A stretch of DNA of 39,933 nt from a bacterium. Its GTDB lineage: Bacteria; Verrucomicrobiota; Verrucomicrobiia; Limisphaerales; UBA11358. The position numbers were made by a program, and so were the translations under genes. The stretch lies in contig JAKALA010000036.1 of NCBI GenBank assembly GCA_021813325.1, positions 1 to 39,933 of the forward strand. Reading direction: 5' to 3'. Below, piece after piece: positions 9,691 to 28,715 of this stretch; position 1 is the first letter of the stretch; each line of letters opens with the position of its first letter. The notes below the pieces were generated by a model. That model did not search any database, was not told the DNA's origin, and saw nothing but the letters and a program-made list of their open reading frames with translations.

Positions 9691-11301
9691 GTGTCAAAAA
9701 TGTTGAAAGCTTCCGGCGCGATGGCCGGCGCCACCTTGTTCAGCCGCGTGCTGGGCATGGTGCGAGTCATGGTGTATGCGCGCTTCATGGGCGACGGCTG
9801 GGTGGCCGGCGCCTTTACGTTTGCGTTTCAAATCCCCAATCTCTTCCGCCGCCTGCTGGGCGAAGGCGCCTTGACGGCCGCGTTCATTCCCATCTTTAAG
9901 GAAAAGGAAAAAAAACACGGCGAAGTGGAAATGTGGCAGGCGGCCAACGCCGTGGTTTCGGGACTGGTGGTGACCGCGAGCATTTTGATCGCGCTGGTCA
10001 TGGCCGGACTGGCCATCGCGCTGTCGGTGGGGGTTTTTCCGGCGAGCACCAGCCTGATGTTGCAATTGTTGTTCGTGATGTTTCCCTACATGTTGCTGGT
10101 CTGCATCGCGGCCTCGTTCATGGGCATGCTGAATGCCCGCGGTTATTTTTTCATCCCGGCCATGGGCGCCACGATGTTGAATCTGGTGATGATTTCATCG
10201 GTGCTTTTTTGGGCGCCGCGTTTAGGATTGTCCCTGCCGAAAGAAGGCCGGCTGCCGGTGCAAATTTTCGCGCTGGCTTACGGCGTGCTCGTCGCCGGGG
10301 TGGCCCAGGCGGTGTTTCAAGTGCCCGCGCTCTGGCGCGACGGCTACCGTTACCGCTGGGTTTCGCCGTGGCGCAATGAAACAGTGCGTCTGGTGGTCAC
10401 ACGCATGATCCCCGGCACCATTGGCGTGGCCGCCTTCCAGTTGAATGTGCTGCTGGTGCAAAGTCTGGCGTTTTGGATCAACCCGCAAATCAATGCCTCA
10501 TTTGAATATGCGGTGCGGTTGATGGAGTTGCCGCAGGGCATGTTCGGCATTTCGTTGGCGACGTATATGCTCACAACTTTAAGCGCGCTGGCGCTGGATA
10601 GGAATTATTCGGAATTTCGCGCCACGCTGCGTCACGGGATCAGTTCGCTGGTTTTTGTCAATCTGGTGGCCGCCGCGCTGCTGGTGGCCTTGGCCCAACC
10701 CATCATGCGGCTGCTGTTTGAACGCGGGTTGTTCACGGCCGCCGCCACCAACCGAGCCGCCTTTGCCTTGGTTTGTTTGGCGCCAGGATTGGTGGCCTTT
10801 TCCACGGTGAACGTGCTGGCCCGCGCCTTCTTCGCCCTGGGCGACACCAAAACGCCAATGAAAATCAGCATCGCCTGCCTGGCGCTGAATTTGATGCTGG
10901 CGGCCATTTTAATCGCGCCGCTGAAGCAAGGCGGTCTGGGCATCGCCAACACGGTCACATCCGTCTGCAACGTGGTGTTGCTCCTGTTCGCCTTGCGAAA
11001 AAAACTGGGCAAACTGGAAATGCAACCCCTGCGCGACACGCTGCGGCCATTGCTGCTGGCCGCGATGCTTGCGGGCGTGGTGGCCTGGTGCAGTTGGGAA
11101 CGCTGGGAACACTGGCTGGGGCACGGCACATTGGCCCTGAAGATGGGGGCCGTTTTTGTGCCCGCCAGCCTGGCCGGCATCATCTACTGGCTGATGGCGT
11201 TGATGTGCCAAGTTCCGGCAGCCAAGGAAATGACCGATCTGGTGCTCGCAAAAACAGTCAGGAAATCCAACGCGGCGACCGCGAATAACGACAAGCAGTG
11301 A
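9691..11301 (+). CDS. murJ: MurJ/MviN lipid II flippase
   Basis: A polytopic inner-membrane protein of ~536 residues with about 14 hydrophobic helices. It is a member of the MOP superfamily that moves lipid II across the membrane for peptidoglycan synthesis. The N-terminus shows the family signature: 'SGAMAGATLFSRVLGMVRV', then 'FTFAFQIPNLFRRLLGEGAL' followed by 'TAAFIPIF', with the conserved Arg residues. The GTG at 9691 gives 'VSKMLKASGAM', matching the usual family start. An ATG at 9700 and a TTG at 9673 are alternatives. The gene follows the AAA ATPase in the same direction and meets ispE tail to tail with four bases between the stops. Confidence 0.93.
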   Translation: MSKMLKASGAMAGATLFSRVLGMVRVMVYARFMGDGWVAGAFTFAFQIPNLFRRLLGEGALTAAFIPIFKEKEKKHGEVEMWQAANAVVSGLVVTASILIALVMAGLAIALSVGVFPASTSLMLQLLFVMFPYMLLVCIAASFMGMLNARGYFFIPAMGATMLNLVMISSVLFWAPRLGLSLPKEGRLPVQIFALAYGVLVAGVAQAVFQVPALWRDGYRYRWVSPWRNETVRLVVTRMIPGTIGVAAFQLNVLLVQSLAFWINPQINASFEYAVRLMELPQGMFGISLATYMLTTLSALALDRNYSEFRATLRHGISSLVFVNLVAAALLVALAQPIMRLLFERGLFTAAATNRAAFALVCLAPGLVAFSTVNVLARAFFALGDTKTPMKISIACLALNLMLAAILIAPLKQGGLGIANTVTSVCNVVLLLFALRKKLGKLEMQPLRDTLRPLLLAAMLAGVVAWCSWERWEHWLGHGTLALKMGAVFVPASLAGIIYWLMALMCQVPAAKEMTDLVLAKTVRKSNAATANNDKQ

Positions 11302-19721: not shown

Positions 19722-20813
19722 TCAAGCCAAATTCAATTCGGTTTCCCAACTGTCAGGCGCCAGGCGGACTTGTTTTTTTCGTCCGCCCGGTCCCGTGCCA
19801 ATATGTCGGCCAATGGCCTGCATTTGACCGGCCAGATCGGCGCGCTGATTTTTCGGCTCGGTAATGCACGCCTTGGACGGATAAATCTCGTAGAACCGGC
19901 GGTATTTGTGCGGCGTAAGATTCGGCATGAAAACGTTGGCGCCGCGGCGCAGCCCGAGATCGCGGCCATTGGTCTTGTTGAGAGTGGCCAACGCCGTCGT
20001 AGCCGGAATGTTGGCGTCAGGCCGGAGCAGTCGCGTCAAAGCCACCGCCTTGTAAACCAGCAATTCTGAATTGGGCACTTGATGGTTTTTTGACGGGGAA
20101 AATATTGGCAAGCCCATGCCTAACGGTGTTGCTGGATGCGGAATGAACGGTCCGATACCAATCATGTCCAAGTCGAGCTCGCGGAACAAAAGAATGTCGT
20201 TCGCCAGGCTTTCGTAGGATTGACCGGGAATACCGACCATCACGCCGCTGCCAGTTTCATAGCCAAGTTCTTTCAAACGCCGCAACATAGCGATGCGATC
20301 GCACGGACGATTGCCCAACGGCGGATGAATCTCCTCAAACAGGTTGCGATCCGATGTTTCAAAACGCAGAAGATACCGGTCGGCCCCGGCTTCCCGCCAT
20401 GATTTTAAATCGCTGTCCGGACGTTCCCCCAAACTCAAGGTCACCGCGAGCGGGGTTTCGGTTTTGATGCGGCGAATGATGTCTGCCATCCACTGCGTCT
20501 GTAGTCCATAATCTTCACCGCCTTGAAGCACCACGGTGCCGAAGCCCAATGCGACCGCCTGGTTGGCTGCCTCCGAAATTTCGTCGGCCCGCATCCGGTA
20601 ACGGACCAGCCTGGTATTACCCGCCCGCAAGCCACAGTAAAAACACTGGCGGGCACAGAAATTGGAAACCTCCACCAGCCCCCGCAGAAACACGGCGTCG
20701 CCGACGTGCGCACGCCGCGTTTCGTTCGCCCGCCGCCATAATTCCTCCAGCCGCTGCGGGTCGGTTTCGCGCAACCAGGCGAGAATTTCGGTCTTAGTGA
20801 TTGGCGTATTCAT
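19722..20813 (-). CDS. hydE: [FeFe]-hydrogenase H-cluster radical SAM maturase HydE
   Basis: A 363-residue radical SAM protein that takes part in building the diiron part of the H-cluster, acting on the HydG product. The SAM-cluster motif is C-x3-C-x2-C at Cys53, Cys57 and Cys60 ('NFCARQCFYCGLRAGN'). 'VVLQGGEDY', 'RYLLRFETSDRNLFEEIHPP' and 'SGVMVGIPGQSYESLANDI' are typical of HydE and separate it from biotin synthase. It is the last gene of the hyd operon. Its ATG overlaps the hydF stop by four bases, so translation is probably coupled. Confidence 0.95.
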   Translation of the reverse strand: MNTPITKTEILAWLRETDPQRLEELWRRANETRRAHVGDAVFLRGLVEVSNFCARQCFYCGLRAGNTRLVRYRMRADEISEAANQAVALGFGTVVLQGGEDYGLQTQWMADIIRRIKTETPLAVTLSLGERPDSDLKSWREAGADRYLLRFETSDRNLFEEIHPPLGNRPCDRIAMLRRLKELGYETGSGVMVGIPGQSYESLANDILLFRELDLDMIGIGPFIPHPATPLGMGLPIFSPSKNHQVPNSELLVYKAVALTRLLRPDANIPATTALATLNKTNGRDLGLRRGANVFMPNLTPHKYRRFYEIYPSKACITEPKNQRADLAGQMQAIGRHIGTGPGGRKKQVRLAPDSWETELNLA

Positions 20814-22168
20814 GCCGACACCGCTTGCTTCTGTTGGTCTCGGTAAAATTCCAATGCCGCTGGAAATGGAGCCAGCGCCCGTTCAAAAATCCCGAGGCTA
20901 TAAGCGATGGTCAGGCCGTAATTGGTGATGGGCACGCCCGCCTGCTGGCATTTGAGAATGCGGCTCAACATCTCGCGGCGGTTCCACATGCACGCGCCGC
21001 AATGGATCACCAGTTTGTAATCTGCCAGATCTTTTGGAAAATCCCGGCCCTGACTGTTTTCGATCTGGAGTTTGGCACCGACGTATTGCGTCAGCCAGCG
21101 CGGAATTTTTACCCGCCCGATGTCCTCACCGATGGGATGATGCGAGCAGGCCTCGGCGATCAACACGCGGTCGCCGCCGCGCAGATTTTCGATGGCCATC
21201 GCGCCTTGCACTTGCGCCAGCAAATCGCCTTTGAAACGCGACATCAAAATCGAAAAACTGGTCATCGGCACGTCGCGCGGCGTGTCGGCGGCCACTTTCA
21301 GGAACGCCTGCGAATCGGTGACGACCAGCTTCGGGGGCGTTTTCAATCGGTCCAGTCCGGCGCGGAGTTCGCGTTCCTTGACCACCAGGCACATTGAATC
21401 GCTGTCGAGCAAATCGCGGATCGCCTGCACTTGCGGCAAAATCAAACGTCCTTTCGGTGCTTCTTTGTCAATCGGCACCACGAGCACCGCCAGTTCACCG
21501 GGGCCGACCAGATCGCCAAGAATCGCCGGATTATCGACGAAATCTGCCGGAGCCGCTGACAGCAACGCCTCGCGCAGTTCCAAGATGCCGTCGCCGGTGA
21601 TGGCGGAAGTGCGGACGACTTTAAATGGAGCGGTGCCTTCTTGTCCTTGACCTGAACCTTGGTGATGAATCGTTTGGAGTGCGCGGACATGTCCGCGCTT
21701 TGAACCGAGGCGACATGTCGCCTCGGAAGAAAGTTGCGACACGTCGCCGCACTCCAAGGCAGGTTCGCGGGAAGTGGGAACGCCACAATCGATTTTGTTA
21801 AGCACAACGACTGTCGGCGTCTTGCGCGAATCCAGCTCGCTGAGAATTTCCTCCTCGAAATTACCCCACTTGCCGGATTCAGTGACCAACACGGCCACAT
21901 CCGTTCGCTCCAAAACCTGACGGGATTTTTCCACGCGCATGGTGCCCAATTCGCCAACGTCGTCTATGCCGGCGGTGTCGATGAACAGCACCGGACCCAG
22001 CGGCAGCAATTCCATCGGCTTCTCCACGGGATCCGTGGTCGTGCCGGCCACTGGTGAGACAATCGAGACTTGCTGGCGCGTGAGCGCATTGAGCAGCGAC
22101 GATTTACCAACATTTCGCCGACCGAAAAACGCGATGTGCAGGCGATGACTTTTGGGCGCGGTGATCAT
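20810..22168 (-). CDS. hydF: [FeFe]-hydrogenase maturation GTPase HydF (with an in-frame repeat insertion)
   Basis: A 452-residue GTPase and scaffold that carries the diiron precursor and hands it to HydA. GTPase motifs are G1 'GRRNVGKSS' (about 16-24), G3 'DTAGIDD' (64-70) and G4 'NKID' (124-127). The C-terminal iron-sulfur motif CxH-x45-HCxxC is intact (Cys341, His343, His389, Cys390, Cys393). Between G4 and 'RTSAITGDGI' there is an extra segment. Residues 138-165 are encoded by an 84-bp palindromic element whose length keeps the frame. The insertion is in a surface loop of the G domain, so the protein is probably still active. ATGA overlaps join hydF to aspA before it and hydE after it. 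Confidence 0.95.
   Translation of the reverse strand: MITAPKSHRLHIAFFGRRNVGKSSLLNALTRQQVSIVSPVAGTTTDPVEKPMELLPLGPVLFIDTAGIDDVGELGTMRVEKSRQVLERTDVAVLVTESGKWGNFEEEILSELDSRKTPTVVVLNKIDCGVPTSREPALECGDVSQLSSEATCRLGSKRGHVRALQTIHHQGSGQGQEGTAPFKVVRTSAITGDGILELREALLSAAPADFVDNPAILGDLVGPGELAVLVVPIDKEAPKGRLILPQVQAIRDLLDSDSMCLVVKERELRAGLDRLKTPPKLVVTDSQAFLKVAADTPRDVPMTSFSILMSRFKGDLLAQVQGAMAIENLRGGDRVLIAEACSHHPIGEDIGRVKIPRWLTQYVGAKLQIENSQGRDFPKDLADYKLVIHCGACMWNRREMLSRILKCQQAGVPITNYGLTIAYSLGIFERALAPFPAALEFYRDQQKQAVSA
21674..21757. repeat. 84-bp palindromic element inside hydF
   Basis: Bounded by perfect 10-bp inverted ends TTGGAGTGCG / CGCACTCCAA. Inside are three palindromes in a row: a perfect 18-bp one at 21681-21698 (centre GGACATGTCC), a perfect 22-bp one at 21705-21726 (centre CGACATGTCG), and an imperfect 12-bp one at 21736-21747 (GCGACACGTCGC). 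The length is a multiple of three and the hydF frame runs through it (28 codons). This looks like a REP- or MITE-like genomic repeat, since it carries no gene of its own. Confidence 0.88.
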
Positions 22169-23694
22169 GGCTGCTGCGTGGCGGCGGCTCGGGAGAGCGC
22201 CGCTAAATTAGTGTTTGAATGGCGGCGCTCTGCCGAGTCGCCGCTACAGATTTCGGGCGAACCCAGCCGGCAAACCGCCTCTGGGCTGATCAATCCGTCA
22301 AATTGCTCGCCCGTCAGCCAGGCTCGATTTATCACAATTTCGCGAAGGCTTTGGCGGCTTTCGCGGGCCAAGGTGGCCGCTTGCGCCGCACGTTCGTAGC
22401 CCAGCAAAGGCACCAGCGCCGTCACCGTTGCGGTGGAATTTTCCACTTGTTCGCGGCAACGGGTTTCATTGGCTTGAACCCCTTCGATGCAATGACGCCG
22501 CAGGATGTCGTTGGCGCGGGCCAGCAAATCCAAGCTGTCCAGCAGACTGTCGGCAACGAGCGGCAGAAATGGATTCAGTTCCAGCGAGCCGGAAGCGCAG
22601 GCCATCGTGATGGTGGCATCGTGGCCGATCACGCGCATGGCAGCCTGGCTGACCGCTTCGGGGATTACCGGGTTCACTTTTCCCGGCATGATGGAGGAAC
22701 CGGCCTGACGCGACGGCAGCGTGATTTCGCCCAGCCCAGCTTCGGGCCCCGAGGCGAGCAGGCGCAGGTCGGCGCAGATTTTCAGCAACGAAACCGCATG
22801 CGCCTTGAGGATGCCCGAGACTTCGACGAATACGTCGGCGTTCTGCGTGGCTTCCACCAGGTTTTCCGCGCGCGCAAAACCGATGCCGGTGATTTCGCGC
22901 AGTTGATCCACCACCTGGAAAATGTATTGGCGTGGAGCGGCCAAGCCGGTGCCAATGGCGGTGCCGCCCAGATTTACGACCCGCAGACGCTCCTCACATT
23001 TGTAGATGCGCCAGCGGTCGCGGTTGATGGCTTCCGCATACGCGCCAAATTCACGGCCCAGCGTAGTCAGCACGGCATCTTGAAACTGCGTGCGGCCCAC
23101 CTTGACAACGTGCGCAAATTTCTTTTCCGCCGTTTGAAACGATTCCTGCAATGCGACGACCTGTTTTTCCAGCGCTTGCAGCCGCCGGATGGCCGCCAGC
23201 CGCAACGCTGTTGGATAAGTGTCGTTGGTGGATTGATGGAGATTCAAGTCGTCGAGCGGCGAGATCTGTGGCGGCGACGCCTCGTCGCTGACCGTGGTCG
23301 CGACAGGAACGTCGCCGCCACGGATTTCCGAAATGATTTTCCCCGCGCGATTGGCCAGCACTTCGTTGACATTCATGTTGGTGCTGGTGCCGGCTCCGCC
23401 TTGCAAGGCGTCCACGATAATGCAGCCGCCCAGATCGCCATGGGCCAGTTCGCAGCAGGCGCGCTCAATGGCATCGGCCTTGAGCCGGTCGTCGGCCCAG
23501 GCGCCGAGCGCCCGGTTGGTCCGGGCACAGGCGAGTTTCACGTCGCCAAAGGCGCGGGCCAGTTCGGGATGCGCCGATTTGCCGGCGAGCGGAAAATTTT
23601 CCAGCGCCCGTTGCGTGTGAATGCCATGCAACGCATCCGCTGGAACCGGCAATTCGCCCAGACAATCCCGTTCAATGCGAAAGGGGGCTGTCAT
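22165..23694 (-). CDS. aspA: Aspartate ammonia-lyase
   Basis: A 509-residue member of the fumarase/aspartase superfamily that splits L-aspartate into fumarate and ammonia. Signature regions are 'GGAGTSTNMNVNEVLANRA', 'LHQSTNDTYPTALR' and the mobile SS loop 'GSSIMPGKVNP' (332-342), which holds the catalytic Ser. Fumarase is the main alternative, but the N-terminus ('ERDCLGELPVPADALHGIHT') favours aspartase. Two oddities exist. Residues 125-143, between 'SEI' and 'ISPLDDLNL', come from a 54-bp palindromic insertion. The last ~27 residues come from another inverted repeat. The gene lies between hydG and hydF and overlaps hydF by ATGA. The ammonia could feed the amine bridge of the H-cluster, and the fumarate could be an electron sink (both inferences). 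Confidence 0.92.
   Translation of the reverse strand: MTAPFRIERDCLGELPVPADALHGIHTQRALENFPLAGKSAHPELARAFGDVKLACARTNRALGAWADDRLKADAIERACCELAHGDLGGCIIVDALQGGAGTSTNMNVNEVLANRAGKIISEIRGGDVPVATTVSDEASPPQISPLDDLNLHQSTNDTYPTALRLAAIRRLQALEKQVVALQESFQTAEKKFAHVVKVGRTQFQDAVLTTLGREFGAYAEAINRDRWRIYKCEERLRVVNLGGTAIGTGLAAPRQYIFQVVDQLREITGIGFARAENLVEATQNADVFVEVSGILKAHAVSLLKICADLRLLASGPEAGLGEITLPSRQAGSSIMPGKVNPVIPEAVSQAAMRVIGHDATITMACASGSLELNPFLPLVADSLLDSLDLLARANDILRRHCIEGVQANETRCREQVENSTATVTALVPLLGYERAAQAATLARESRQSLREIVINRAWLTGEQFDGLISPEAVCRLGSPEICSGDSAERRHSNTNLAALSRAAATQQP
22178..22247. repeat. 70-bp inverted repeat forming the 3' end of aspA
   Basis: Two 26-bp arms (22178-22203 and 22222-22247) pair with three mismatches around an 18-bp spacer. 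The arms are rich in GGCGGC/GCCGCC. It lies wholly inside aspA, encodes most of the last ~27 codons, and ends 10 bases before the hydF start overlap. Confidence 0.85.
23268..23321. repeat. 54-bp palindromic element inside aspA
   Basis: Ends are a perfect 12-bp inverted repeat, GTGGCGGCGACG / CGTCGCCGCCAC, with a smaller GTCGC/GCGAC pair inside. The 54 bp equal 18 codons and keep the aspA frame, adding a segment ('RGGDVPVATTVSDEASPP') that I do not expect between the aspartase motifs. Confidence 0.85.
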
Positions 23695-23753
23695 ATTTTT
23701 ACGGGAACATTGGTCGGCTGTTTCCTCTGAATCCCAAGATGGTCAGTTGCCCA

Positions 23754-23954
23754 CCTCACCCCGGCCCTCTCCCCATCGGCTCCGAAAACTCCGCCGACGC
23801 GGAGAGGGAGAAGCGCTCGCCGCGTTACGCTGTTGGAAAGCTCCTGGTAGTTTAGCGGTTCAAGGCGGGAAGTATTGAGCAAACCGAGCCTGTGATAATT
23901 TCTTAAGGCGGTGAACGATTCCCCCTCTCCCAGCGCGAGAGGGCCGGGGTGAGG
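23754..23954. repeat. ~200-bp element with 18-bp inverted ends between aspA and hydG
   Basis: Perfect 18-bp inverted ends, CCTCACCCCGGCCCTCTC (23754-23771) and its complement (23937-23954). Each end also has a nested CTCTCC/GGAGAG or CCCTCTC/GAGAGGG stem. It fills most of the 331-bp gap between aspA and hydG. No gene is seen in it. It resembles small non-autonomous repeats common in intergenic DNA. Confidence 0.82.
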
Positions 23955-24025
23955 GAGAACAACACCCCAATCAATTTCAGCGTTATTCTGATAAAATGGC
24001 TGATGAATACTCATTGCATCTCACC

Positions 24026-25435
24026 TCAAACAAACACGTCCTTTTCGTTCTGACGGACACGGGCTACGAGTTCGTTGGCCGTTTTGCCGATGGCGCCGGG
24101 CATGGTTTGCAGCTCGCGATTCACGAGTTTTTCGCCGACCTGCCGGGTCTCCGCCGCCGCATAGCCCATAAGATATTCCAGGCAGCTCGACAAGGCGTTG
24201 GGGCTGCAATGTTCCTTGATTAATCCGGGCTTGGCCAAGTCCATGAAATCCGCGCCGGTGCGGCCGAGGCGATAACAAGCCGTGCAGAACGAAGGCGTGT
24301 AACCGAGCGATGCCAAGTCGCGCACCACTTCGTCGAGCGAACGATGGTCGCCAAGCTGGAATTGCTCGGCATTGTGGCCGTCGCCGCATTCGGCGTAGCC
24401 GCCGGGATTGCAGCGGCTGCCCGCCGAAATCTGCGAAACACCCAGCTGGAACGTCGCCCGCCGGGTGTCGGCGTTTTCGCGGGTGGACATGATGATGCCG
24501 GTGTAAGGCACCGCAAGGCGCAGGATGGCGACGATCTTTTTGAAGTCCGCATCCGAGACCACATGCGGCGGGCGTTCGGCAAGGGACGATCCCACGGCCG
24601 GTTCGATGCGCGGCACGCTAATGGTGTGCGGGCCGACGCCGAATTGCTCTTCAAGATGATGAATGTGCTGCTGCATGGCGAGCATCTCGAATTTCCAATC
24701 GTAAAGCCCGAACAACACACCGATACCGACGTCGTCGATGCCCGCCGTCATCGCGCGGTCCATCACGTTCACGCGCCAATCGAAGTTTTTCTTCGCGCCC
24801 AGGGTGTGAACCTTGGCATAAGTTTCGCGGTGATAGGTTTCCTGAAACAACTGGTAGGTGCCGATGTGGGCGTCCTTAAGCTGACGGAATTGCTCCACGG
24901 TGAGCGGGGCGATGTTTACATTCACACGGCGGATTTCGCCGCGTCCATTCTTGGTGGAGTAGATCGTATTCAGGGCTTTGAGGATGTAATCAAAACCCTC
25001 GTGCGGATACGATTCGCCAGCGACGAGCAGCACCCGCTTGTGCCCCTGATTAATCAGCACCTCCACCTCCTTGGCGATTTCGGCCTGCGTCAGGGTGCGG
25101 CGTTGCAATTCCGTGTTGGCGGCGCGGAACGCGCAGTAGCTGCACTCGTTTTTGCAAAGATTGGAAATGTAGAGCGGCGCGAACAGGACGAGGCGGTTGC
25201 CGTAAATCTCATCCTTCACAAACCGCGCCGCCGCGAACATCTCTTCCATCAGCGCCGCATCCTGGATTTCCATCAAGACGGCCACTTCGCCGGCATCCAG
25301 GCCTTCGAGCTGGCGCGCTTTGGACAACACCTCGCGGACGCGTGCCGGACTGGACCGGCGGGCGGTGTCGAGCGTGGAGCGAATGGCGGTTTCGTTGATG
25401 AAGTTACTGGATGGTTTGGGAGCGGTGATGTTCAT
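24026..25435 (-). CDS. hydG: [FeFe]-hydrogenase H-cluster radical SAM maturase HydG
   Basis: A 469-residue radical SAM tyrosine lyase that makes the CO and CN ligands of the H-cluster from tyrosine. The SAM cluster motif C-x3-C-x2-C is at Cys94, Cys98 and Cys101 ('NLCKNECSYCAFRA'). The HydG-specific C-terminal motif C-x2-C-x22-C (Cys384, Cys387, Cys410), which holds the second cluster with the dangler iron, is intact. This separates it from ThiH. Residues 'SYPHEGFDYILKALNTIYST' and 'VGIGVLFGLYDWKFEMLAM' are typical. The gene follows hydA with a 64-bp gap holding a small palindrome. Confidence 0.97.
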   Translation of the reverse strand: MNITAPKPSSNFINETAIRSTLDTARRSSPARVREVLSKARQLEGLDAGEVAVLMEIQDAALMEEMFAAARFVKDEIYGNRLVLFAPLYISNLCKNECSYCAFRAANTELQRRTLTQAEIAKEVEVLINQGHKRVLLVAGESYPHEGFDYILKALNTIYSTKNGRGEIRRVNVNIAPLTVEQFRQLKDAHIGTYQLFQETYHRETYAKVHTLGAKKNFDWRVNVMDRAMTAGIDDVGIGVLFGLYDWKFEMLAMQQHIHHLEEQFGVGPHTISVPRIEPAVGSSLAERPPHVVSDADFKKIVAILRLAVPYTGIIMSTRENADTRRATFQLGVSQISAGSRCNPGGYAECGDGHNAEQFQLGDHRSLDEVVRDLASLGYTPSFCTACYRLGRTGADFMDLAKPGLIKEHCSPNALSSCLEYLMGYAAAETRQVGEKLVNRELQTMPGAIGKTANELVARVRQNEKDVFV

Positions 25436-25453
25436 AAATATTTTGGTTGGCCG

Positions 25454-25483
25454 GCCGCCCTACAGCTGTAGTTGGAGGGCGGC
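25454..25483. repeat. 30-bp palindromic unit between hydA and hydG
   Basis: Arms GCCGCCCT / AGGGCGGC enclose a 10-bp palindrome TACAGCTGTA. It lies in the 64-bp gap after the hydA stop. It could weaken transcription into hydG or stabilise the hydA mRNA end, but no T-run follows, so a plain terminator is unlikely. Confidence 0.7.
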
Positions 25484-25499: not shown

Positions 25500-28400
25500 T
25501 CAGGAGCTTTTGGCATTTTTAAACGACATTTTGCGCACAAAAGGCCGGTAGTGGGTGTGGAGCAGCGTGTGCGCCTTGTGGGAATTGGGGCGCTCGTAAT
25601 ATTCCTGATACAGGCGCAGGATGTCGGGATTCTCGTGCGACCGACGTAGCTGGGCTTTGTTGTCAATGTCCACCAGCACGTTCTGGCGCTTCTCCAACGT
25701 GTTCAACTTTTCCGGAACCGGATGGCCGGCGCCGCAAATACAACCGCCGGGACAGGCCATGACTTCAATGAGGTCGAAGCCGCAGGGTTCGCCGTTCAAA
25801 ATTTTCTGGATGATCGGCTCGGCGTTTTTCAGGCCGGAAACGACCGCAACTTTCAACGGGCCGCCCGGCATTTGCACCTCGGCTTCCTTGATACCCTCGA
25901 AACCGCGCACGGCTTCGAACACCAGGCCTTGCTGGCCGGTCGCCGGGTTGGTGGGGAGGGGTTGGCCGGTGACATTTTCCACCGCCATGCGGAGCGCGGC
26001 TTCGGCCACGCCGCCGGAAGCGCCGAACAAAACACCGGCGCTGCTGACCATGCGATACGGATCATCGAATTCCGTCGGCTTCACGGAGGTTAGGTCAAAG
26101 CGGATGAGCTTGAGCATTTCCAGCATTTCCATGGTGGTGAGCACGGCGTCCACATCGCGGATGCCTTCGGGGGCGAATTCCGGCCGCGCGGCTTCCTGTT
26201 TCTTGGCGAGGCAAGGCACGACGGAAACCACGAAGAGTTTTTCCTTCGGAATGCCGGCCCACCGGGCGAAATGGTTTTTCACGGTGGCCCCCATCATTTG
26301 CTGGGGCGATTTGCAGGATGAAAGATGCGGAATGAGTCCGGGATAGCGGCGTTCCACGAAGTTGACCCAGCCCGGGCAGCAGGAGGTGAATTGGGGCATG
26401 ACGCCTTTGCCCTGCACGCGGTTCAGGAATTCAGTGGTCTCTTCCATGATGGTGAGGTCGGCGGCGAAGCAGAAATCGAACACCTTGTCGAAGCCGAGCG
26501 CTTTGAGCAAACCAGCCATGTAGGGGGCCGCTTCGGTGGGGGCGACTCCCAGTTGGGCGGAAATCACACTGCGCACCGCCGGCGCGACAAAGCCAACCAC
26601 GATTTTGTCGGGGTCGTTCAGCGCGCGGAAGACCTTGCCCTTTTCGCGCCGGTAATCAAGCGCGCCGCAGGGGCAGGCGTTCACGCACTGGCCACAACTG
26701 ACACAATCGGTCTCCCACAACGGTTCGCCGGTGCGGGTGCCGACGAGCTGCCGGCCTTGTTCCAAGTTGAAGGCGAGCACGTCCGGCCCTTCCAACTGGG
26801 AGCAGACGGCCACGCAGCGACCGCAGGAAATGCACTTGTTGGCGTCGCGGATGATAAAGGGATGATGGTCGTCGATCGCAAATTTCGGCCGTTTATGCAC
26901 GGGCTTGGAATACACGACGCCGTGGCGGCGCGCTTCCTTGCGGAGCGTGCAATCAAAACGTTCCATGCAGCCGCATTTGAGGCAGCGATCGGCTTCGGCC
27001 CTGGCCGTGGCTTCGCCCAACCCTTTTTCCACTTCCACAAAACTTTTGATGCGTTCGGACGGAGCCAGCGCGGGCATGGTGGCGCGCGGAATGCGGGGCA
27101 TTTCCTCGAATTCCCAGCGGGGCAAATCTTCCAGCGTGCCGCGCGAGCAGTTGTAATTGGCGTTTTCTTCCTGCACATAACCCTTGGTGAGGAAGGAATC
27201 CATGGCTTCGGCCGCGCGCCGTCCGGCGCCGATGGCTTGAATCACCGTCGCCGGCCCGGTCACACAATCACCGCCAGAAAACACCTTGTCCACCGAGGTC
27301 TGAAGCGTCTTGGGATTGATTTCAATATCGCCCCACTTGTTCAGTTTTACCGGCAGATCGTTGTAAAGGAATTGCGTGTTGGTGCTCTGGCCGATGGCGC
27401 CGATGATGGTGTCGGCTTCCACAACGTGTTCGGAACCGTCCACCGGCACGGGCCGGCGGCGGCCGGAACGGTCCGGCTCACCCAACTGCATTTTGATGCA
27501 GTGCAGTGCCTTTTTGCCGTCGGCGCGGGTGGCGATTTTGGTGGGCGCGGTCAGGAAAACCATTTCCACGCCTTCGTGCAGGGCTTCCTCTACTTCGAAG
27601 GGTTCGGCGGGCATTTCCTCGCGGGTGCGGCGGTAAACGAGTTTGACTTTTTTGGCTCCTTTACGCAGCGCGGTGCGGGCGCAATCAATGGCGGTGTTGC
27701 CGCCACCGATGACGACCACGGTTCCGCCCAGATTGATGGCGGTCCCGAGCGTCACTTGTTCGAGGTAGTTGATGCCAAGCCACACGCCGGGAGAATTTTC
27801 ACCCTCGATATGCAGGGCGGTCGCGCGCCAGGAGCCGATGGCCAGATAAACGCTGTCAAAATCCTTCCGCAAATCTTCCAGCCGGAGATGCACGCCCAGC
27901 GCCTTGCCGGTCTGAAGTTTGACGCCCAGGCTTTTGATCACGTTGATTTCCTTGTCCAACGTGGCTTTGGGCAGACGATATTCAGGAATGCCAAACCGCA
28001 TCATGCCGCCGGCGTAAGACTGCCGCTCAAACACCGTGACCGCATGGCCTTTGATGGCGGAATAATACGCGGCGGAAAGTCCGGATGGCCCCGCGCCGAT
28101 GATGGCAATGCGTTTGCCGGAAGGTTCGGCAACACGCGGAAGCCACGGCGTTTCCTTGGCCATGTCCAAATCCGCCACGAAACGTTTGACGTAATTGATG
28201 GCCACGGCGGAATCCACCAGTTTGCGGCGGCATTGCGCCTCGCACGGATGCGGGCAAACGCGGCCGCACGCCGACGGAAACGGATTGCGGTCTTTGATGA
28301 CGCGCAGCGCCGCTTCGTAATTACCATTCCGCACCTGGCGCAGATAGCTCTGGATGTCAATGTTCGCCGGACAGGTCATCACACAAGGCGCCACGCAATC

Positions 28401-28715
28401 CGCGTTGTGGTCGGACAGCAACTGTTCCAGGCGGATTTTGCGGTAGCTCTCCAGTTTGGGGCTATTGGTGGTAATCTGCATGCCGGCTTGCACCGGCGTC
28501 TGACACGCCTTCACTTCGCGCCCTTCCGGACCCAATTCCACCACGCATAGTCCGCAGTTGCCGTTGGAGCGTTCGAGCCGCAGATCATAGCAAAGGTGCG
28601 GAATATGCACCCCCTCCTGGATCAATGCCTGCAAGATGGTGATGTTGCCATACACTTCCATTTCACGGTTGTTTACCGTGATTTTGATGCGTTGTTGTTC
28701 GGATATTTGTTGCAT
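25500..28715 (-). CDS. hydA: Single-chain NAD(P)H-linked [FeFe]-hydrogenase with GltD-like flavin module
   Basis: A 1071-residue enzyme expected to couple NAD(P)H and H+/H2. Domains in order: a 2Fe-2S domain (Cys42, 54, 57, 71); a GltD/dihydropyrimidine dehydrogenase-like 4Fe-4S part (Cys107, 111, 115 and Cys150, 154, 158, 162); an FAD/NAD(P) module (~200-515) with GAGPSG at 207-212, GGGN at 337-340 and 'GGDCVTGPATVIQAIGAGRR'; a Cys group at 578-589; two 4Fe-4S motifs (Cys628-638 and Cys671-681); and the H-cluster domain. L1 is TSCCPGW (Cys779, Cys780), L2 is VPCLAKK (Cys835) and L3 is 'ACPGGCICGAGHP' (Cys988, Cys992). Residues matching the known proton path of clostridial CpI are kept (Glu759, Glu762, Arg766, Cys779, Ser799). 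L2 has Val for the usual Met, and L3 has CGAGHP for NGGGQP. The start is the ATG at 28715. A perfect Rex site lies ~80 bp upstream. Confidence 0.93.
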   Translation of the reverse strand: MQQISEQQRIKITVNNREMEVYGNITILQALIQEGVHIPHLCYDLRLERSNGNCGLCVVELGPEGREVKACQTPVQAGMQITTNSPKLESYRKIRLEQLLSDHNADCVAPCVMTCPANIDIQSYLRQVRNGNYEAALRVIKDRNPFPSACGRVCPHPCEAQCRRKLVDSAVAINYVKRFVADLDMAKETPWLPRVAEPSGKRIAIIGAGPSGLSAAYYSAIKGHAVTVFERQSYAGGMMRFGIPEYRLPKATLDKEINVIKSLGVKLQTGKALGVHLRLEDLRKDFDSVYLAIGSWRATALHIEGENSPGVWLGINYLEQVTLGTAINLGGTVVVIGGGNTAIDCARTALRKGAKKVKLVYRRTREEMPAEPFEVEEALHEGVEMVFLTAPTKIATRADGKKALHCIKMQLGEPDRSGRRRPVPVDGSEHVVEADTIIGAIGQSTNTQFLYNDLPVKLNKWGDIEINPKTLQTSVDKVFSGGDCVTGPATVIQAIGAGRRAAEAMDSFLTKGYVQEENANYNCSRGTLEDLPRWEFEEMPRIPRATMPALAPSERIKSFVEVEKGLGEATARAEADRCLKCGCMERFDCTLRKEARRHGVVYSKPVHKRPKFAIDDHHPFIIRDANKCISCGRCVAVCSQLEGPDVLAFNLEQGRQLVGTRTGEPLWETDCVSCGQCVNACPCGALDYRREKGKVFRALNDPDKIVVGFVAPAVRSVISAQLGVAPTEAAPYMAGLLKALGFDKVFDFCFAADLTIMEETTEFLNRVQGKGVMPQFTSCCPGWVNFVERRYPGLIPHLSSCKSPQQMMGATVKNHFARWAGIPKEKLFVVSVVPCLAKKQEAARPEFAPEGIRDVDAVLTTMEMLEMLKLIRFDLTSVKPTEFDDPYRMVSSAGVLFGASGGVAEAALRMAVENVTGQPLPTNPATGQQGLVFEAVRGFEGIKEAEVQMPGGPLKVAVVSGLKNAEPIIQKILNGEPCGFDLIEVMACPGGCICGAGHPVPEKLNTLEKRQNVLVDIDNKAQLRRSHENPDILRLYQEYYERPNSHKAHTLLHTHYRPFVRKMSFKNAKSS

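Follow-up and report, generated by a model that had tools for sequence, protein, structure and literature searches.

The tetranucleotide GTAG is common to most described repetitive extragenic palindromes (REPs), and for this reason it is an open question how such hairpins and the REP-associated tyrosine transposases (RAYTs) stay matched. GTAG-tagged REPs and their paired forms (REPINs) combine a short 5′ foot on a hairpin, inverted pairs, many copies in some genomes and an adjoining HUH tyrosine transposase (TnpAREP). TnpAREP is described as cutting single-stranded hairpins bearing the right foot (PMC8266576; PMC6006769), and W94, Q95 and R104 are well conserved in the GTAG-associated subclasses (PMC6006769). 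In-frame intragenic REPs are described in PMC3733652 for Opitutus terrae and Rickettsia conorii, together with the Rickettsia palindromic elements (RPEs); there, O. terrae, a member of the Verrucomicrobia, is given as having the most GTAG-tagged in-frame REPs, and different REPs are reported near one site of Xanthomonas recB. Here, a contig of 39,933 nt from a Limisphaerales genome (GCA_021813325.1, JAKALA010000036.1; the window) was analysed, in which small palindromes crowd an [FeFe] hydrogenase (hyd) operon. Very probably, each of these palindromic units entered the operon separately, as a small non-autonomous element that persists where the reading frame survives, with at least two of the elements belonging to the REP/RAYT type.

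An earlier note on this DNA had placed five inverted-repeat units between hydA and the middle of hydF, three of them in coding DNA with the frame intact, and had described such units as nearly absent from the rest of the window. Within 3.8 kb of the operon, four of the units were recovered as strong inverted repeats and the fifth as a weaker hairpin. Unit 1 (21674–21757, minus strand) is an 84-bp three-hairpin element of a class tagged TTGGA[G/C]T and lies in frame within hydF; unit 2 (22178–22247, minus strand), a REP dimer, consists of two GT[AG]G-footed hairpins in inverted orientation and encodes the tail of AspA at the aspA 3′ end; unit 3 (23261–23328, minus strand, an extent somewhat different from that first given) is a GTGG-footed palindrome in frame in the interior of aspA. 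None of these three introduces a stop. Unit 4 (23754–23954, no strand assigned), a 201-bp element with CCTCACCCCGGCCCTCTC arms, occupies the hydG-aspA spacer, and unit 5 (25454–25483, no strand assigned) is a weak hairpin in the hydA-hydG spacer. Units 1 to 4 are the sole inverted repeats above a fixed score cut-off in the entire window, compared with an average of 1.3 in 10 dinucleotide shuffles, and they fold far better than shuffled sequence (z-scores of −6.5, −7.3, −5.4 and −5.4; none of 200 shuffles folded equally well). The description thus held for these four, while unit 5 proved to be a modest hairpin (z −3.7, 0 of 200 shuffles) under the cut-off of the repeat detector. Sampling 296,272 bases of the same genome gave 27 such repeats, corresponding to 0.35 expected per 3.8 kb; four or more in one 3.8-kb stretch have a Poisson probability of 0.0005, and a whole genome is expected to contain about 0.5 such stretches. 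The crowding of repeats in the operon is unusual, not unique: the sample includes one further stretch with four (L025).

Comparison of the operon across relatives indicates that the units are insertions at sites which elsewhere are empty or occupied by other palindromes. Of 14 aligned HydF proteins, taken from the window and from loci of the order (the partial genes of L176 and L177 were excluded), 11 have a short loop following the NKxD motif. In the other three the loop is filled, each time by a different palindrome: the window has unit 1, locus L038 a CCCTCACCC-type element and L175 a GTGGCACAGGCG-type element. HydF residues 129–180 are predicted to have no secondary structure, with a predicted local distance difference test (pLDDT) score below 50 (structure prediction with 11 rows, mean pLDDT 71.7). 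That related bacteria have this loop occupied by three palindromes of unrelated sequence illustrates a way in which a protein can be lengthened by small mobile DNA with the frame kept open. AspA is 13 residues longer through unit 3 than in the six relatives covering that stretch. At the place of unit 2, a same-family element is present in L174 and a different hairpin, judged by eye and fold, in L173 (the contigs of L174 and L173 are also designated L037 and L040, respectively). The element common to the window and L174 was considered as proof of common descent and rejected as such, as L174 groups with L173 (support 99), which is without it, and the place of the window in the tree is weak; either shared ancestry or separate insertion may account for it. 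The hydG-aspA spacer measures 331 bp in the window, compared with 6–25 bp in six and 87–209 bp in four of ten other Limisphaerales operons; three of the four long spacers contain a scored palindrome (L174, L175, L180), and in L181 a palindrome was seen by eye.

Apart from these sites, a single open frame of 812 amino acids in L182 (G034:C523, 9466–11904 in reverse-complement coordinates) covers both HydF and HydE, and the linker holds a CGTAGCGC-type palindrome (10689–10805), an apparent gene fusion via an in-frame palindrome. In L037/L174, which belongs to a genome of the same genus as the window, a unit-1-family element (10675–10758) lies in the 3′ end of hydE, and the frame is extended to 390 amino acids.

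The copy-number search proposed in the earlier note gave for unit 1 a single element in its own genome and multiple, scattered copies in relatives. The core pattern of the family occurs in 23 of 116 genomes of the order, with at most 22 matches each (22 in G018, 22 in G074, 20 in G081 and 18 in G025). With a wider pattern, half-sites numbered 79 in G285 and 16 in G275, both of the window's genus, 40 in G074 and two in the window's own genome, with none in six of ten genomes; the reversed control gave one match in G275 and one in G074. Unit 1 is 28 codons long, and 20 of the 21 complete elements in G285 (20 stretches) have exactly the same length of 84 bp and three hairpins in common. In the window copy the middle hairpin is kept by paired changes and one outer hairpin has lost two pairs. 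Over 19 sequences, from which the structure itself was derived, 94.9% of the cells are paired compared with 31–47% when the structure is slid, and five pairs are changed on both sides. The elements of G285 are open in 5.5 of the six frames on average and the window copy in five, compared with 3.6 in shuffles. The hairpin foot of unit 1 reads TTGGAGT and is neither GTAG nor GTGG. Insertion into genes as a rule was also considered: a long frame runs across 12 of the 21 G285 elements, and 18 frames scanned yielded no Pfam family above cut-off and one match below it. Coding insertion is probably not the rule, because none of the G285 copies examined could be assigned to a known gene.

A putative transposase gene flanked by this family was found by a Y1_Tnp search of six genomes, which returned a weak match in G074 (locus L201) with complete unit-1 palindromes on either side. 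The open reading frame (ORF) of 175 amino acids has HYH as HUH motif and YVHYNP as Y...NP motif, and scores 77.2 bits with the NCBIfam model REP_Tyr_transpos NF047646 (cut-off 80) and 24.7 with Pfam Y1_Tnp (cut-off 23). Homologues occur in 32 of the 116 genomes (E ≤ 1e-15), and 30 homologue loci, picked by protein homology, were taken for the analysis of the flanks. Strong palindromes stand on both sides of the RAYT in 16 of them. The 9-mer TTGGAGTGC (at most one mismatch) lies within 700 bp on both sides in 27, with 143 tags compared with 12.6 in shuffles. A strict grammar of TTGGA[G/C]T, hairpin and TTT is matched in the flanks of 26 loci, 17 of which have it on both sides (77 matches, none in shuffles); the tag having first been read from the same flanks, these counts are descriptive, with the shuffles and control loci as safeguard. 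Over the whole loci there are 82 matches, 74 of them outside the defining G074 locus. Elsewhere, control loci from other phyla (888 kb) gave one match and the 296-kb sample of the window's own genome gave none, and in the window the grammar picks out unit 1 only. Between genomes the stem varies, and tag and TTT are constant.

The protein differs along with the tag. In an alignment to E. coli TnpAREP (4er8), which is weak (E = 0.04) and from which the residue numbering was taken, Q95, H101 and R104 are absent from all 20 clade members with a readable motif among the 30 loci; Q95 is replaced by F, H or M, H101 by S or T and R104 by T, V or S, and W94 is retained. Among nine other RAYT-like genes with a readable motif in the same genomes, R104 is present in all nine and Q95 in seven, and GT[AG]G hairpins occur at six of the nine loci. 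A tree splits 26 clade members from these nine genes with support of 100/98, two of the nine being on long branches; this split is expected, because the 26 members were gathered by homology. By these aligned positions, unit 1 belongs to a class with a TTGGA[G/C]T tag whose RAYT clade differs in the residues by which E. coli TnpAREP reads GTAG. Such a clade, distinct in both its tag and its guide-contact residues, constitutes a natural experiment on what sets recognition. Other divergent Y1_Tnp or RAYT-like genes in these genomes stand beside palindromes of 70–170 bp and of other sequence at nine loci (L203, L206, L207, L224, L226, L232, L236, L237 and L238), hinting at further pairs of element and transposase.

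Set against the described systems, unit 2 shares its GT[AG]G feet with the GTAG-tagged REPs, whereas the class of unit 1 has the foot TTGGA[G/C]T and RAYTs without Q95, H101 and R104. Palindromes within the hyd genes exemplify a known phenomenon, because in-frame REPs and differing REPs near one recB site are published (PMC3733652): the in-frame position is the same, and the recB site parallels the HydF loop. The intragenic REPs of O. terrae and R. conorii and the RPEs are, as given there, GTAG or CGTC tagged, whereas unit 1 is neither, and the hyd genes are another target. The TIRtrons with TIRYT (PMC3733652) and TnpAY1 subclass 2.6 and class 3 (PMC6006769) are likewise superfamily transposases with flanking structures other than GTAG; the motifs stated for them, GGGGWSAS and a CnGA foot, differ from TTGGA[G/C]T. 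The term "Verrucomicrobia" is absent from the main text of PMC6006769, and no publication on a TTGGAGT- or GGAGTGC-tagged REP was found under those terms in the openly accessible literature. Within the literature searched, the TTGGA[G/C]T class and its RAYT clade appear to be new. We are inclined to think that Limisphaerales possess a REP/RAYT class not described before, with TTGGA[G/C]T in place of the GTAG guide and guide-reading residues that have changed along with it, and that its 84-bp three-hairpin element can enter genes in either direction with the frame unbroken and so extend functional enzymes, HydF among them, by new loops.

For the remaining units, the feet, the arrangement as an inverted pair and the many copies identify unit 2, as judged from its sequence family, as a GT[AG]G-REP pair. 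Its family is present in 31 of the 116 genomes, with 95 half-sites in G085 and 82 in G090 (reversed control at most one per genome), and further complete copies lie on contigs C7, C109 and C99 of the window's own genome. Unit 3, with GTGG feet, is probably a relative of the GT[AG]G-REPs. The arm pattern of unit 4 has nine matches in the own genome including its own two arms, and the control none. On contig C26 of that genome (L005, 1381–1477) a GTAGCTGCGACG...CGTCGCAG palindrome resembling unit 3 by eye adjoins a Y1_Tnp match. Another small cluster lies on C7 (74821–75322; L116, L127), where about 0.4 kb separates a unit-4-type arm from a complete unit-2-type element.

In the proposed mechanism, a RAYT acting in trans on single-stranded DNA would recognise hairpins that carry a short 5′ tag and move inverted hairpin pairs, and the TTGGA[G/C]T class would work as TnpAREP does, with a different foot. 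The elements would land in many places, and the copies in the hyd genes would be survivors in tolerant loops and gene ends, harmless to HydF and AspA. That the insertions persisted here would follow from gene junctions and tolerant loops having been hit and the frame kept. The suggestion in the earlier note of several families of small mobile palindromes is borne out by families that recur in other genomes, unit-1 copies that flank a RAYT and sites that are empty or differently filled in relatives. The proposed hot spot holds better for individual positions, namely the HydF loop and the gene junctions, than for the operon as a whole; insertion tolerance is the simplest reason.

Several results weigh against this reading. 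In the own genome, BLAST with unit 1 matched only the single element itself and its own reverse, and no RAYT of the clade was found at E ≤ 1e-15, so that there is no sign of unit-1 activity there. The search of the genome for a RAYT gene, proposed in the earlier note, gave five Y1_Tnp matches, four of them above cut-off, and a role of these transposases in driving unit 1 was rejected, as no pattern of unit 1, 2 or 4 lies within about 1.5 kb of any. Copies of unit 1 and the clade RAYT do not always occur together, because G018 (89% complete) is rich in copies and yet has no clade RAYT. The L201 protein scores slightly below the NCBIfam cut-off, the tag counts and the residue numbering carry the limits given above, no RAYT tied to unit 2 was among the RAYT loci retrieved, which are part of all matches, and no transposase could be tied to units 4 and 5.

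Among the alternatives, horizontal transfer of the operon from a palindrome-rich relative, elements included, is improbable. HydF was found in only 15 of 293 genomes of the order (E ≤ 1e-60), the window lies on a long branch of the operon tree, and the same-genus G285 is rich in unit-1 half-sites whereas the own genome has one element; however, the gene order hydG-aspA-hydF-hydE is common to same-genus genomes, tree support near the window is weak (45), and no donor with the same inserts was found. Hairpins selected as RNA structures to tune stability, termination or translation of the hyd mRNA, and thereby the protein ratios suggested in the earlier note, are very unlikely. The units have strong predicted folds and palindromes recur at the hydG-aspA junction of relatives, but in relatives the corresponding places are empty or hold palindromes of other families, the unit-1 family is scattered elsewhere in their genomes, and Rfam at gathering score gave no match across the window. 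Selection of this kind lacks support: apart from the same-family unit 2 in L174, relatives do not retain the units in place. Chance palindromes in ordinary GC-rich coding DNA, as the earlier note would have had it for units single-copy and conserved as protein in all homologues, are hardly credible: such a reading is possible for the weak unit 5, and four-repeat stretches are not unique in the own genome, but the extra lengths are absent from homologues, the fold z-scores and family copies elsewhere speak against it, and it is refuted for units 1 and 2, unit 1 being single-copy in its own genome but absent from homologous proteins and multi-copy in relatives. Separate insertion of small palindromic elements is retained as the best explanation.

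The genome (Limisphaerales, Verrucomicrobiota) comprises 4.28 Mb in 123 contigs, of which the window is C21, and the nearest named HydF relatives of the window are metagenome-assembled genomes of Limisphaerales or Verrucomicrobia subdivision 3. All five genes of the operon lie on the minus strand: hydE (19722–20813; TIGR03956), hydF with unit 1 (20810–22168, 452 amino acids; TIGR03918), the aspA-like gene with units 2 and 3 (22165–23694, 509 amino acids), hydG (24026–25435; TIGR03955) and a hydA-type [FeFe] hydrogenase gene fused to a GltD-like part (25500–28715). The HydA of the window is a fusion of 1071 amino acids, consisting of a GltD-like NAD(P)-oxidoreductase part and the [FeFe] hydrogenase; the operon-adjacent hydA products of relatives have only about 43% identity to it over the hydrogenase part. 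An aspartate ammonia-lyase-like gene lies between hydG and hydF in most of the Limisphaerales operons examined, the exceptions being L182, L183 and L184.

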